Origin: Acidobacteriota bacterium | Lineage (GTDB): Bacteria > Acidobacteriota > Thermoanaerobaculia > Multivoradales > Multivoraceae | Reading direction: 5' to 3' | DNA: 64,000 nt | NCBI GenBank assembly: GCA_029263415.1 | Contig: JAJCXN010000051.1 | Location: 248,001-312,000, forward strand | In this document: positions 884 through 8,722 of the stretch, piece by piece | Layout: every line of letters begins with the position of its first letter | How positions within the stretch are numbered: position 1 is the stretch's first letter | Program-made: the position numbers and the translations under genes | Notes under the pieces: generated by a model | The model's database searches: none | What the model was told of the DNA's origin: nothing | The model's input: only the letters and a program-made list of their open reading frames with translations

Positions 884-1375
884 ATGGTCTGCTGGGAGAC
901 GCTGTATGCAGAGGTCGGCGAACGCGTCTTCCGTCTGCTTCACCGAATGATGGGCTGTTCAGAAGAAGCGGCAGATTTGACCCACGATGCGTTTGTCCGC
1001 TTGCACCAGGCAAAGCGCCAGTTTGATCAGCGCGGCCCACTCCATGCGTGGGCATTTCGCATCGCCGCCAACGTCGGACGGGACGCGTTGCGCAGTCGCA
1101 GAGTGCGAAGTGATCACGCTCGAACCGTGGTGCGTGACGCACCGATACAGCTGAGGTCCACGCCCCCGAAGCACTCGGAGAGATCGCTGGGACTCAAGCA
1201 GGCACTCTTGGACCTACACCACAGTTACCGAGCAGTGCTGCTGCTCCACGATGTCGACGGATACACCCATCAAGAGATCGCAGAGATGCTCGCGATCGCG
1301 GTAGGAACTTCGAAGGCCCGCCTCTCACGAGCTCGGCATGCGATGAGGCTTACTCTGGAGGAAACGAGACAATGA
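884..1375 (+). CDS. ECF-type RNA polymerase sigma factor
   Basis: 163-residue sigma-70 family protein of extracytoplasmic-function size. Region 2 covers about residues 4-70, with the helix VFRLLHRMMG, an acidic DLTHDAFVRLHQA segment and the FRIAANVGRDALR core-binding/-10 part. Region 4 covers about 105-155, with the helix-turn-helix GYTHQEIAEMLAIAVGTSKARLSRAR. I chose the ATG at 884 because region 2 begins directly after it; an upstream in-frame TTG at 791 would add 31 residues that look like noise. The stop overlaps the next start by 4 bases (ATGA), so the partner at 1372 is probably translationally coupled. Sigma factors of this kind are normally held by a co-encoded anti-sigma factor. Confidence 0.9.
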   Translation: MVCWETLYAEVGERVFRLLHRMMGCSEEAADLTHDAFVRLHQAKRQFDQRGPLHAWAFRIAANVGRDALRSRRVRSDHARTVVRDAPIQLRSTPPKHSERSLGLKQALLDLHHSYRAVLLLHDVDGYTHQEIAEMLAIAVGTSKARLSRARHAMRLTLEETRQ

Positions 1376-2094
1376 ACAGTTCATCCGACAACGAATCGAA
1401 GCGCCGCCTGGCCGAGCTTCTGCACGAAACGGAGTCTTGCGCTCTCTTTGAGGCTGAGCGGATTCGATCGCAGATCAGAGACACTTTGGCCTCGGACGGC
1501 CCGATGAAGCACTCGAGCGGCCGCTCATACGCTGCTCCCGATGAGAGCGCAACACCCAACGAGGCTCGTGAACTGGATCGTCAAACGCATCGCCTGATGG
1601 ATCGCCAAGTGGGTCGCAGGTTCGTGGCAACGGCTTTGCCCAGCTCTCAACGAACAACTTCTCAACGAACCATCGCATGGGCGTTGCGCATCGCCGCAGC
1701 AGTCGCCTTCTTTACCTTGGGGCTGCTGTCAGGGAGAGGGAGCGTTCTGACTCCAGTCACCCTGGTCTCCGATACCCAATCAGTGGGGGAATCAGCAGGT
1801 GCCCCACTGTGGAACGCGAGCGCGGTGCCCAAGATGGTGAATCCCAGTGAGTTGCCGTTCTCGATTCAGACAACGGGTACCGGTTATGTCTCTTCGCTCT
1901 CTCTCTTGAGCGAGATGAAAGAACAACTCAGTCCCACAGAGCTTCAACAGGCACGAGAGGTTGCAGTCGCTGTCCTAAGCGGAGCGATCGCCGAGTTGCT
2001 GGTGTCGACAGACGGTGCTTCACAGAGCGAACTAATGGAGGTGCTGGCCGGAAGAGGGCCGTCATCCGAACCCGGGAGGTTGGGATCATGGTGA
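1372..2094 (+). CDS. Putative anti-sigma factor, single-pass membrane protein
   Basis: 240-residue protein with no recognised catalytic domain. It has a polar, charged N-terminal part (about residues 1-100), one clear membrane segment at about 102-122 (WALRIAAAVAFFTLGLLSGRG), and an outer domain of about 110 residues. This is the layout of a single-pass anti-sigma factor, and its start overlaps the sigma factor stop. I see no HxxxCxxC zinc anti-sigma motif, so it is not a standard ZAS protein; the assignment rests on position and topology. It shares 7 bases with the following PDZ gene. Confidence 0.6.
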   Translation: MNSSSDNESKRRLAELLHETESCALFEAERIRSQIRDTLASDGPMKHSSGRSYAAPDESATPNEARELDRQTHRLMDRQVGRRFVATALPSSQRTTSQRTIAWALRIAAAVAFFTLGLLSGRGSVLTPVTLVSDTQSVGESAGAPLWNASAVPKMVNPSELPFSIQTTGTGYVSSLSLLSEMKEQLSPTELQQAREVAVAVLSGAIAELLVSTDGASQSELMEVLAGRGPSSEPGRLGSW

Positions 2095-3530
2095 TCGAAG
2101 CTAGAGGCCCCCGTCGTCAACCAGGTCAGTTGACGTCCACGACTTTGCGGCCAACGGCTTTCGGCTCGTGCCTACTGGCCGCCACAGTGCTCGCCCTAGC
2201 AGTCCTGCCGGCGACTGCCCTTTCCGCAAGTGCCCTCTCCTCAAACGCAGAGACAACCCCGTGCTCCAACGAGTCCTGGAACTGGATCGGCGCCGACGTC
2301 TTCCACTGCCCCGGCGGAACCTGCGTTTTCGACGCTGCAGATTCCGGCGATTCCCTACGCTTCCGTTTCTCAGCTGAACCCTGGATACGTGCGATCGACC
2401 CCGAAGGCCCAGCGATGAATGTGCTGATCGAAGGCGATGTTCTTGTTGCCATCAACGGCTTGTTGATCACCACGGCAAGCGGTGGCCGCGAACTGGGAGG
2501 TCTCGAGAAGGGCCGAGACGCGCGCATCACCATTCGTCGTGGCGATCGTTTGCTTGACGTCGAGATTCGGCCCGAGCCGCGCTGCGGCGGGCCCTTGATG
2601 CTAGTCGGTAGTTCGCGGCTCGAACTGCCCAACGCGCGGCAGCGCGAGTTCACGGTGAGCGCTCGAGCGGTCGGCGACGGCACGCTCATCGATTTCACGA
2701 CGCCTCACCGGGTCGGAGAAACAGCGCTTGATCTTTCCTTAGGCATGACCGTTCGATGCACGGATTGCGTCATGCGCCGTGATGAGCAACGGTGGATCAT
2801 CAGGGCCTACCCGACCGTCGAAAGCCTCAACGGAGATGGCGTCGCTCACGAGGCCGGTCTCCGCGTGGGCGACAGCATCGTCGAGATCAGCGGCCATGAC
2901 CTACTCACGCGCGCCGGTGGCGAGCTCATGTTTTCGCCCCCGCGCGGTGATTTCAAGATCCGCTACACCCGGGGCGACCAAGAGCAGATGGCGCCCATCA
3001 ACCGCCGAATCATCGATCAACGCATTCGAGTCACGTCCCATCGCAGCGAGCGGGTCAAGGTTCAGATCCGCCCTGGAAAGGATGGATGGAGTCCAGGCGT
3101 CCTCGGAGCCCTGACCCAATGGTGGAGCGACCTACGCAGACAGAGTCGTGGCGACACCGACGCGAGCCTGTCGATTCCAGGCATGGACCAGCGCTGGATC
3201 GCCAGCGGCGACGCCTGGGGACTCGCCTCCCTCGGTCTGCTCTTCGAAGCGAAGGACGGACGTTTCTTCGTGCCCCGGGGTCAGGGCGAAACGGTCCAGA
3301 TGCGGCTGCTCACCGAGCCGGTTGTCGCGGACGTCATCGAAGGCGGTGCAGGTGAGTCCGCGGGCCTAGAGGTTGGAGACGTAATTTTGAGAGTCGATGG
3401 TCACCCAGTGCTGGGCTCGAATGGTTCATATCGCATGCTCTTTCCACAGCCCAACAAACGAATCCAGTTCCATTTTTCGCGCGACGGAAAGACCAAGCGC
3501 ACAACGCTATTGCCGAAGGAGACACCATGA
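2088..3530 (+). CDS. Secreted protein with three PDZ-like domains
   Basis: 480 residues. An N-terminal signal segment of about 25-50 residues (LAATVLALAVLPATALSASA) predicts export. Three PDZ-like modules can be seen: about 88-155 (DVLVAINGLLI), about 240-305 (AHEAGLRVGDSIVEISGHDL) and about 400-475 (ESAGLEVGDVILRVDGHPV). The first module is preceded by a Cys-containing segment (CPGGTC), and a CTDC pair lies before the second. There is no protease triad, so this is a PDZ-only protein; PDZ domains bind protein C-termini or exposed hydrophobic ends. It overlaps the gene before it by 7 bases and the hydrolase after it by 4 (ATGA). It could be an envelope sensor or adaptor acting with the sigma/anti-sigma pair or with the peptidase. 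Confidence 0.75.
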   Translation: MVIEARGPRRQPGQLTSTTLRPTAFGSCLLAATVLALAVLPATALSASALSSNAETTPCSNESWNWIGADVFHCPGGTCVFDAADSGDSLRFRFSAEPWIRAIDPEGPAMNVLIEGDVLVAINGLLITTASGGRELGGLEKGRDARITIRRGDRLLDVEIRPEPRCGGPLMLVGSSRLELPNARQREFTVSARAVGDGTLIDFTTPHRVGETALDLSLGMTVRCTDCVMRRDEQRWIIRAYPTVESLNGDGVAHEAGLRVGDSIVEISGHDLLTRAGGELMFSPPRGDFKIRYTRGDQEQMAPINRRIIDQRIRVTSHRSERVKVQIRPGKDGWSPGVLGALTQWWSDLRRQSRGDTDASLSIPGMDQRWIASGDAWGLASLGLLFEAKDGRFFVPRGQGETVQMRLLTEPVVADVIEGGAGESAGLEVGDVILRVDGHPVLGSNGSYRMLFPQPNKRIQFHFSRDGKTKRTTLLPKETP

Positions 3531-5059
3531 AGTTCCACCAATATCTCAAGACAGGAGTCGCTGTCCTCGCAACCCTGTCCGCCCTCCCCTGCTTAGCCTC
3601 AACACTTGAGTCTCAAGACGGCCAAGAGGAACGGCGGGCAGGAACGCTCACCATCGAGAAACGAACCCTTCAAATTTCAGAGACCGAAAGCATCGAAGCC
3701 GAAGAGGGTCGCCTGTTGGTGCCAGAGAACCGCAACAAGAAGGACAGCCGTTTGATCGAGCTCGCCTTCGTGCGGATCCCTTCAACGGGTGCATCTCCGG
3801 GTCCGCCGACGGTTTACCTCAGCGGCGGACCTGGCCAATCGGTGCTCGGATCGCTGTCGCGCACCGGGGCTGTGAGGCGCTGGCTCGAGCTGCTCGAGGT
3901 GGGTGACATGGTTCTCATTGACCAGCGAGGAACCGGGCTATCAACGCCCAACCTCAGCTTTCCGTGGAAAGGAGAAACACCAGTTAATCAGTTCCGCAAC
4001 CTTGCCGATTCGGCCCCCTATTTTCAGGAGATTGCTGATCAGGCCACAGAGCACTTTCGCGCCCAGGGGGTCGATTTGGACGGCTACACCTCCGAACAGA
4101 GCGCCGATGATCTCAACGATCTTCGCATCGCTCTTGGGGTCAAAAAGCTCAACCTGTTCGGTTTCAGTTACGGCACCCATCTTGGGCTCTCGGCGATTCG
4201 CCGACACGGAGAACACCTAGAGAACGTCGTTCTGCTGGGGGTCGAGGGGCCGAACCACACCTACAAGTTGCCCAGTACCATGGACGTGCAGTTCAACAAG
4301 TTGGCACTGATGGCAAAGGAAGATCCCGCTATCGCCTCCAAGGTGCCCGACCTCAACGCACTGCTGGATCGAGTGCTTGACAAGTTGAGGTCGAACCCGA
4401 TGCTGGTTTCCGTTCGTGATCCAAAAGGCGGCGGTCCATTGCAGATCCCAATCGGTGCCGATGGACTGCTCTTCTTACTACGCCGAGACATCGGTGATGC
4501 CAGCGACCTTCCCGTATTTCCGCGCCTGCTCTATTCGATTGATCAAGGCGACTCCCGCATGCTCGAGTGGTTCGCGCGCAAGCGCTTTCGGTTCGGTGCC
4601 AACGCAATGTCGACAATCATGGACGCCGCCTCAGGGGCCTCAAGCGAGCGGCTCCGTCGAATTCGCGAGGAAGCTTCGCAGAGCCGATTCGGAAACGTCA
4701 TGAACCATCCGTATCCACAGATCGCAGAGCTTTGGAGCGCTCCTGATCTCGGTGACGACTATCGCGCCCCGATCGCGAGTCCAGTGCGCACGCTCTTCTT
4801 GTCTGGCACCCTGGATTGGAACACGCCACCCTTCCAGGCCGAGGAGGTTCGTTGGGGCTTCCCGAACAGCTCGCACATCATCGTTAGGAATGCAGGTCAC
4901 GAGCAAGTGCTCGGACACCGTAATGTGCAGCGAGCGATCCTCGATTTTCTAAGTGGAAAGAACGTAGACGATGCGACCGCGAGTTTCCCCGCAATGCGTT
5001 TCGTACCGCTTGATGGGTATCACCCCGGCAATACCCATGCAAGCGTGCCGCGCGACTGA
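3527..5059 (+). CDS. Secreted alpha/beta-hydrolase, S33/tripeptidyl aminopeptidase type
   Basis: 510 residues with an N-terminal signal peptide (VAVLATLSALPCLAS). The alpha/beta-hydrolase fold is marked by the oxyanion motif GGPGQS near residue 101, DQRGTGLS near 132, the nucleophile elbow GFSYGT (Ser about 214), the acid region SGTLDWNTP and the catalytic His in NAGHEQ near the C-terminus. This arrangement fits prolyl/tripeptidyl aminopeptidases (MEROPS S33) and the TAP-like C-terminal domain. It probably removes N-terminal residues from exported peptides. It is the last gene of the overlapping four-gene set that starts with the ECF sigma factor. Confidence 0.85.
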   Translation: MKFHQYLKTGVAVLATLSALPCLASTLESQDGQEERRAGTLTIEKRTLQISETESIEAEEGRLLVPENRNKKDSRLIELAFVRIPSTGASPGPPTVYLSGGPGQSVLGSLSRTGAVRRWLELLEVGDMVLIDQRGTGLSTPNLSFPWKGETPVNQFRNLADSAPYFQEIADQATEHFRAQGVDLDGYTSEQSADDLNDLRIALGVKKLNLFGFSYGTHLGLSAIRRHGEHLENVVLLGVEGPNHTYKLPSTMDVQFNKLALMAKEDPAIASKVPDLNALLDRVLDKLRSNPMLVSVRDPKGGGPLQIPIGADGLLFLLRRDIGDASDLPVFPRLLYSIDQGDSRMLEWFARKRFRFGANAMSTIMDAASGASSERLRRIREEASQSRFGNVMNHPYPQIAELWSAPDLGDDYRAPIASPVRTLFLSGTLDWNTPPFQAEEVRWGFPNSSHIIVRNAGHEQVLGHRNVQRAILDFLSGKNVDDATASFPAMRFVPLDGYHPGNTHASVPRD

Positions 5060-7759: not shown

Positions 7760-8722
7760 ATGCGCATCCGAAACCAGACAACCGTCCTTCGCACACTGCT
7801 CGTTCTTGCCGCCCTGGCACTCGTTGCAGCTGTCCCCGCTACAGCAGAGATCGAACGCAGCTTTGATACCGGAGGCGGCGGTGCGCTCAAACTCAGCGCC
7901 GATGGCGCGTCGGTCACAGTTGAGACCAACAACGGCAACACCACCACGGTGTTGATCGAACGTCGCCGGGGCAGCGAACGGATCGAAAACGACTTCGACG
8001 TTTCTTTCGATCACGATGGCCGAGATCTCGTGGTCAGAATTGAGAAGCGCGACAAGATCAACTGGGGGCGCAACAACGGCCTCAAGGTGACGGTTGCCCT
8101 ACCGCAGCAGTTCGACCTCGACATCTCGACCTCGGGTGGCTCTCTTGCGGTCACCGATCTTGACGGCGAGATCGTCGCTCGAACGTCGGGCGGCAGCATC
8201 TCCTTGGGCCGCGTGGAAGGCACCGTTGACGCGAAGTCTTCGGGTGGTTCGATCAATCTCGAAAGCAGTTCGGTCAGTGCGAATCTCTCTACTTCCGGTG
8301 GCGGGATCACCGCAGGCGACGTGGCAGGCACGGTGAAAGCGCGCACCTCTGGCGGTTCAATCCAGATCGATCGAGCCGACGGCGACATCGACGTTTCCAC
8401 CTCTGGTGGCTCGATCAGGCTGGGCGAGATTGCGGGCTCGATCGACGCCAAGACTTCTGGTGGCTCGATCACCGCGACTTTCACCAAGCAGCCCTCCAAC
8501 GACAGCGAACTGTCGACCAGCGGTGGCAGTGTGCGGGTGAGCGTTGCCTCAGGCATCGGCTTTGACTTGGATGCTCGTAGCTCGAGCGGTGTGACTACTG
8601 ATGTGCCGATCCAGGTGCGCGGCAAGATCGAGCGTAGCCAGGTGCAGGGTACGGTCAATGGCGGCGGACCCGCCTTGGTGCTGCGGGCATCCGGCGGCAG
8701 GATTGTGATCTCGGAGAGCTAG
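7760..8722 (+). CDS. Secreted DUF4097-type beta-strand repeat protein
   Basis: 320 residues. A signal peptide at about residues 1-29 (LLVLAALALVAAVPATAE) is followed by a head domain and then by a run of about 20-24-residue repeats. Each contains a T/S-SGGSI core (TSGGSISL, SSGGSINL, TSGGSIQI, TSGGSIRL and so on, eight copies), predicted to stack as a right-handed beta-helix or solenoid. This is the pattern of the DUF4097/DUF4098 'adhesin' family, whose members are often next to anti-sigma or envelope genes. It probably acts outside the cytoplasm; no enzyme motif is visible. A strong terminator follows at 8751. Confidence 0.8.
   Translation: MRIRNQTTVLRTLLVLAALALVAAVPATAEIERSFDTGGGGALKLSADGASVTVETNNGNTTTVLIERRRGSERIENDFDVSFDHDGRDLVVRIEKRDKINWGRNNGLKVTVALPQQFDLDISTSGGSLAVTDLDGEIVARTSGGSISLGRVEGTVDAKSSGGSINLESSSVSANLSTSGGGITAGDVAGTVKARTSGGSIQIDRADGDIDVSTSGGSIRLGEIAGSIDAKTSGGSITATFTKQPSNDSELSTSGGSVRVSVASGIGFDLDARSSSGVTTDVPIQVRGKIERSQVQGTVNGGGPALVLRASGGRIVISES

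Follow-up and report, generated by a model that had tools for sequence, protein, structure and literature searches.

The rpoE-rseA-rseB-rseC operon of Escherichia coli and its associated proteases DegS and RseP comprise an ECF sigma factor, a single-pass inner-membrane anti-sigma factor of the non-zinc type and a co-encoded periplasmic protein. A similar set is predicted for a four-gene operon in the window (the whole 64,000-nucleotide stretch of Acidobacteriota DNA analysed here), and an RseP-type site-2 protease is likewise encoded elsewhere in its genome. The two systems differ in that the predicted periplasmic protein of the window is a multi-PDZ protein rather than an RseB-like one, its PDZ domains are not fused to a protease as they are in DegS and RseP, and a hydrolase is encoded by gene four. 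Furthermore, no sequence homology was detected between RseA and the anti-sigma candidate of the window. The Pseudomonas algU-mucA-mucB genes encode a sigma factor, an anti-sigma factor and a periplasmic regulator, an order matched in the window by the genes for the sigma factor, anti-sigma candidate and PDZ protein. PDZ recognition of protein C-termini occurs in the MucA/MucB pathway through AlgW (PMC10202637). There the PDZ domain forms part of the AlgW protease, whereas the window has a free-standing PDZ protein, encoded after the anti-sigma candidate. The sigE/rseA-htrA-tatB region of Mycobacterium tuberculosis is comparable in that the genes for a sigma factor and an anti-sigma factor are followed by a gene of the PDZ-bearing HtrA type. 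HtrA, however, includes a protease domain, which is lacking in the PDZ protein of the window, and the M. tuberculosis RseA is of the zinc type, unlike the window candidate. The sigE and rseA genes are, moreover, not cotranscribed in M. tuberculosis (PMC10027907). Finally, the fourth gene product resembles Hip1/CaeA and other TAP/S33-like hydrolases, with predicted secretion, a TAP-like C-terminal domain and an intact catalytic triad, but its similarity to these enzymes is low outside the catalytic core and it is coupled to a sigma factor operon. A literature search, with most subscription papers outside its coverage, retrieved no description of a trio of sigma factor, membrane protein and PDZ protein genes.

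The four-gene operon and its promoter

Four co-directional genes are located on the forward strand between positions 884 and 5059, encoding an ECF sigma factor (884-1375), a single-pass membrane protein (1372-2094), a secreted three-PDZ protein (2088-3530) and a secreted S33/TAP-type alpha/beta hydrolase (3527-5059). The sigma factor and membrane protein genes overlap by four bases (ATGA), as do those for the PDZ protein and hydrolase (ATGA), with an intervening overlap of seven bases (ATGGTGA; four if translation starts from the in-frame GTG at 2091) between the membrane protein and PDZ genes. The open reading frames and these overlaps bear out the initial annotation of a single translationally coupled unit. 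Orthologues of the four proteins in a relative of another genus of the same family (G003) share ~65-67, 42, 49 and ~69-70 % identity, respectively, with the sigma factor, membrane protein, PDZ protein and hydrolase. Comparison with these orthologues gives pN/pS values of 0.31-0.60 across all four genes, which on this measure are thus real coding genes under constraint at the protein level.

The sigma factor gene begins with the ATG at 884, in a frame that is open back to a TTG at 791, and encodes a protein of 163 amino acids. Pfam distinguishes Sigma70_r2 (residues 7-73; E 6e-16) and Sigma70_r4_2 (residues 104-152; E 2e-13) domains, and the presence of regions 2 and 4 (4.2) only, with neither region 1 nor region 3, places the protein among the ECF sigma factors. 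A contig search with the sigma factor alignment retrieved general ECF relatives and, beyond these, the G003 contig only.

The interval 884-5059, as originally delimited, leaves out a conserved ECF-type promoter at 704-733 on the same strand. This consists of two blocks upstream of the sigma factor gene, CAACCCTT-N13-CGTCATGCG, with a -35 element CAACC(CTT) and a -10 element CGTC(ATGCG) separated by a spacer of 16 nt, counted from CAACC to CGTC. The identical 10-mer and 9-mer are found, in the same register and with the same spacing, upstream of the orthologous sigma factor gene of G003, and paired conserved blocks arose by chance in 0/3000 shuffles. The boxes AAC (-35) and CGT (-10) are hallmarks of ECF promoters (PMC8103513), and the CAACC-N16-CGTC arrangement in two genera has the form of an autoregulatory promoter of this AAC/CGT type. 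When up to two mismatches were allowed, one further promoter-like site was found in the genome of the window and one in that of G003, approximately the control count. Further motif sites are few and scarcely more numerous than in the reversed-pattern control, and the motif search of these two genomes yielded no nameable wider regulon. The sole other perfect match in the window's genome lies inside an open frame. That the promoter is conserved, and that neither genome has a second convincing copy of it, suggests that the operon is probably transcribed by its own sigma factor, and thus autoregulated. Scans for sigma-70 promoters and terminators produced nothing above chance.

A different overlapping operon (L105:6450-8636) encodes a sigma factor, a zinc anti-sigma factor and a secreted serine/glycine-repeat protein. 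A lone repeat protein similar to the latter is encoded at 7760-8722 of the window.

Conservation of the gene order and the anti-sigma candidate

At the family level, the gene set was found in one of sixty relatives, namely G003 (contig JANQPS010000322.1; Thermoanaerobaculia MAG). Its contig C636 encodes the sigma factor, membrane protein and PDZ protein in order and ends inside the PDZ gene, while contig C1209 begins with the hydrolase orthologue at residue 224. As both contigs end inside the operon, the place of the fourth gene is read across the contig ends, and the four-gene order is likely in G003. A search with the outer module of the membrane protein identified G223, which belongs to a distant family (f25) of the phylum, and thence G067. 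In both, a sigma factor gene is followed by one for a single-TM protein that has this outer module and one for a secreted protein with two PDZ domains, and no hydrolase gene adjoins the trio. As in the PDZ protein of the window, a CxDC element precedes a PDZ domain in the PDZ proteins of G223 and G067, and the G067 protein matches that of the window with a BLASTP E-value of 6e-14. Four genomes, from two families that are only distantly related, thus carry the trio. This count represents a lower bound, as the membrane protein used as query evolves fast and the number of candidates scored in each genome was small. Most of the genomes searched yielded no trio, although searches with this protein are insensitive. 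The initial annotation would have been undermined by an order conserved nowhere else, and the trios in G003, G223 and G067 remove this objection. Since G223 and G067 carry the trio without a hydrolase, the conserved core, judged by gene order, is the sigma factor-membrane protein-PDZ protein trio, with the hydrolase as an add-on. A CAACCAT element is also kept just 5' of the sigma factor gene in G223 and G067, with a clear CGT box absent, and is at most suggestive of a counterpart to the window promoter.

Hydropathy and sequence place a single TM segment in the membrane protein encoded at 1372-2094 (the 1372 protein), spanning residues 96-125 with its flanks (1657-1746; TM itself ~100-122). 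This is followed by a predicted extracytoplasmic helical module (residues 158-212; 1843-2007), the best-conserved part of the protein, with 67 % identity between genera as against 37 % in the cytoplasmic part. The module aligns with the G223 and G067 proteins in a profile comparison (HHalign E 1.6e-6), the N-terminal part remaining unaligned. Sigma-adjoining orthologues thus occur in G003 and, on the basis of the C-terminal module, also in G223 and G067. Pfam, NCBIfam and PDB sequence searches returned no anti-sigma domain, and the last of these no match to any solved chain. A contig scan with the 1372 protein found nothing, and its one weak match in its own genome (C56), a tetratricopeptide-like protein, was rejected. 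Class I anti-sigma factors are marked by an N-terminal domain of four helices, and class II (CnrY-like) ones by a very short helical segment that binds sigma ahead of a single TM. An unreliable AF2 model based on a two-row alignment (pLDDT 42) has a predicted helical N-terminus. The E-value of 0.03 to LTXXQ/CpxP-type sensors, obtained with the G003 protein only, is not taken as a link.

The initial annotation correctly recorded the absence of the Hx3Cx2C zinc motif, although this absence is not a distinguishing feature, as the motif is present in ~56 % of class I anti-sigma domains (ASDI), is lacking in ~44 % and is not required (PMC7406223). The gene was also rightly placed in the canonical anti-sigma position, directly after the sigma factor gene and overlapping it. 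Classical zinc anti-sigma genes occupy this gene-2 slot beside the next-nearest sigma factors. Furthermore, the N-terminal segment of the G223 and G067 proteins is common to a membrane protein (L174) with a YCII-like C-terminus, encoded directly after a sigma factor gene. Taken together, these two features make it most likely that the second gene encodes an anti-sigma factor. Single-TM proteins with a G223-like short N-terminus and a YCII-like C-terminal part are encoded at L174:1147-1710 and L173:1126-1719, and this N-terminus may possibly represent a mobile short anti-sigma domain outside Pfam.

The PDZ protein and the proposed sigma switch

The PDZ protein begins with a signal-peptide-like stretch and includes the cysteine motifs HCPGGTC and RCTDC. 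In agreement with the initial annotation, three PDZ stretches (Pfam/NCBIfam and sequence) and no protease match could be distinguished, with only the PDZ regions of the DegS, HtrA and RseP models being matched. The nearest solved structures to the third PDZ domain are the PDZ domains of RseP-type site-2 proteases. An AF2 model of the protein from a two-row alignment reached a pLDDT of only 30 and is uninformative. In separate families the PDZ gene has stayed beside the gene of the anti-sigma candidate, whose outer module is conserved along with it. This suggests contact between the two gene products, and the PDZ protein probably belongs to the sigma switch. The initial proposal of a signalling set is thus upheld by gene order as far as the PDZ protein is concerned, but its S33 trimming step is not, given the trios without a hydrolase.

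The operon probably represents an autoregulated switch between an ECF sigma factor and a membrane anti-sigma factor. The explanation that we favour, by a modest degree, is that the protease-free PDZ protein acts in the periplasm on the outer module of the anti-sigma factor; here we infer the anti-sigma activity, the PDZ contact, the ligand, the proteolysis and the role of the hydrolase. Under unstressed conditions the membrane protein would hold the sigma factor at the inner membrane face, and the PDZ protein would either bind the anti-sigma factor at its outer part, in the manner of RseB with RseA, or scaffold its proteolysis. Exposed protein C-termini or another ligand would then fill the PDZ domains and change this contact. 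General proteases, among them the RseP-type site-2 protease encoded elsewhere in the genome, would cleave the anti-sigma factor, and the freed sigma factor would transcribe its own operon from 704-733, giving rise to more PDZ protein and hydrolase. If RseB/RseA and the DegS PDZ domain are taken as models (PMC10202637), the PDZ protein would gate anti-sigma proteolysis. If confirmed, PDZ peptide recognition and the proteolytic step would reside in separate proteins of an ECF pathway. The contribution of PDZ domains to sigma release, which in DegS and RseP is always bound up with catalysis, could then be studied alone, and a first handle would be gained on Acidobacteriota anti-sigma factors that are missed by standard profiles.

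Rather less probable is that the PDZ protein and hydrolase are outputs of the regulon only, serving in envelope maintenance with the PDZ protein as a chaperone-like holder and with no role in sensing. Target genes are common in ECF sigma factor operons, all four genes would be transcribed from the conserved promoter, and the hydrolase is dispensable in G223 and G067; the rseA, htrA and tatB genes of M. tuberculosis similarly share one operon for no known reason (PMC10027907). The position of the PDZ gene, which remains third in distant families even as the other cargo varies, nevertheless argues against this, as does the conservation of the anti-sigma outer module together with the PDZ gene.

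A more specific version of the favoured PDZ-based switch, put forward tentatively, is that the free-standing multi-PDZ protein is a peptide sensor which would bind the outer module or tail of the anti-sigma factor, be displaced by the C-termini of unfolded proteins, and take the place of RseB as well as of the DegS PDZ domain. Of the four anti-sigma candidates, three have aromatic tails (window ...RLGSW, G223 ...RKVFWF, G067 ...RKVFWN), which would then be built-in PDZ ligands. The G223 and G067 tails are conserved after a variable linker, but the G003 tail (...TQDVR) does not fit, and the final Trp of the 1372 protein may be a consequence of the gene overlap. The conserved RKVFW(F/N) ends of anti-sigma candidates, which follow a variable linker (L170:4510-4527 and L172:1498-1515), resemble a C-terminal ligand of the PDZ type.

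That the 1372 protein partners the PDZ protein rather than acting as an anti-sigma factor, with the sigma factor controlled by transcription only or by another protein, would accord with its undetected anti-sigma domain and weakly conserved cytoplasmic part, but is improbable in view of its single TM and canonical overlapping position, the zinc anti-sigma genes in the same slot at the next-nearest sigma loci, and the N-terminal segment shared by G223, G067 and the sigma-adjoining YCII-like protein.

The secreted hydrolase and its relatives

The fourth gene product contains an Abhydrolase_1 domain (E 9e-15) and a TAP-like C-terminal domain (E 3e-7). Its triad is intact, with Ser214 (codon 4166), Asp430 (4814) and His458 (4898), so that the abhydrolase fold, GxSxG nucleophile, Asp, His and TAP-like C-terminus of the S33/TAP type are all present. 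Its nearest solved relatives are enzymes of the Hip1/CaeA and TnmK2 types, and PADLOC returned a generic TAP-like match only. The S33/TAP family also includes esterases. The substrates of family members vary, and the aminopeptidase activity of an S33 peptidase is putative here.

Sixty-one family members with neighbouring genes could be surveyed in the window and sixty related genomes. A sigma factor gene lies within ~400 bases downstream on the same strand of 10/61 of these; by comparison, the entire 6.9-Mb genome of the window encodes ~57 sigma factors (PF08281 above cut-off). The sigma-linked hydrolases fall on at least three separate tree branches and include a second operon in the same genome. 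These branches comprise the window/G003 pair, a seven-member clade spanning four families, L126, and the L134/L148 pair, the last not being counted as clear operons because an unrelated small frame separates hydrolase and sigma factor. In the clade of seven, which includes G000:C48:250296, the hydrolase and sigma factor genes are followed, where the contig allows, by one for a small membrane protein. No homologue of the window PDZ protein was found within 2.5 kb of the sigma factor in the separate hydrolase-sigma operons, and their membrane protein is unrelated. The window hydrolase's own branch is rich in members adjoining 7TM-type histidine kinase/LytTR pairs. The association of the hydrolase with signalling genes thus recurs, with differing partners.

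In the initial annotation, the PDZ protein was envisaged as capturing peptides, which the S33 enzyme trims to a product controlling sigma release. The overlap of all four genes, the sigma linkage of such hydrolases on at least three branches and the histidine kinase/LytTR linkage on the window's branch are in keeping with this, but it is now quite unlikely, as the trio occurs without a hydrolase in G223 and G067, the other hydrolase-sigma operons lack a nearby PDZ homologue and a related membrane protein, and substrates vary within the hydrolase family, the nearest solved relatives being Hip1/CaeA and TnmK2. Because a distant family carries the trio without the hydrolase, the switch does not require trimming as a step. 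Most likely, the hydrolase serves the envelope response as an output or accessory enzyme and is not obligatory in sensing.

Several of the surveyed loci have features of their own. In the second operon of the same genome (L055:6213-8706; G000:C48, ~250.2-252.7 kb), a hydrolase gene overlaps an ECF sigma factor gene by four bases and is followed by a gene for a two-TM protein, an arrangement that three families of the order retain (L047, L050-L052). A conserved SRTP(T/S)LRAIERRLAxLE motif lies at the end of this two-TM protein, which gave no Pfam match above the cut-off. The small frame of L134 (2281-2658), like that in the equivalent place in L148, is Cys-rich and lies on the opposite strand. 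Related hydrolases in L041 and L043-L046 are transcribed divergently from a gene for a multi-TM protein, which is a histidine kinase (PF06580) where checked (L041, L044 and L046), with a LytTR response regulator in L041 and L046.
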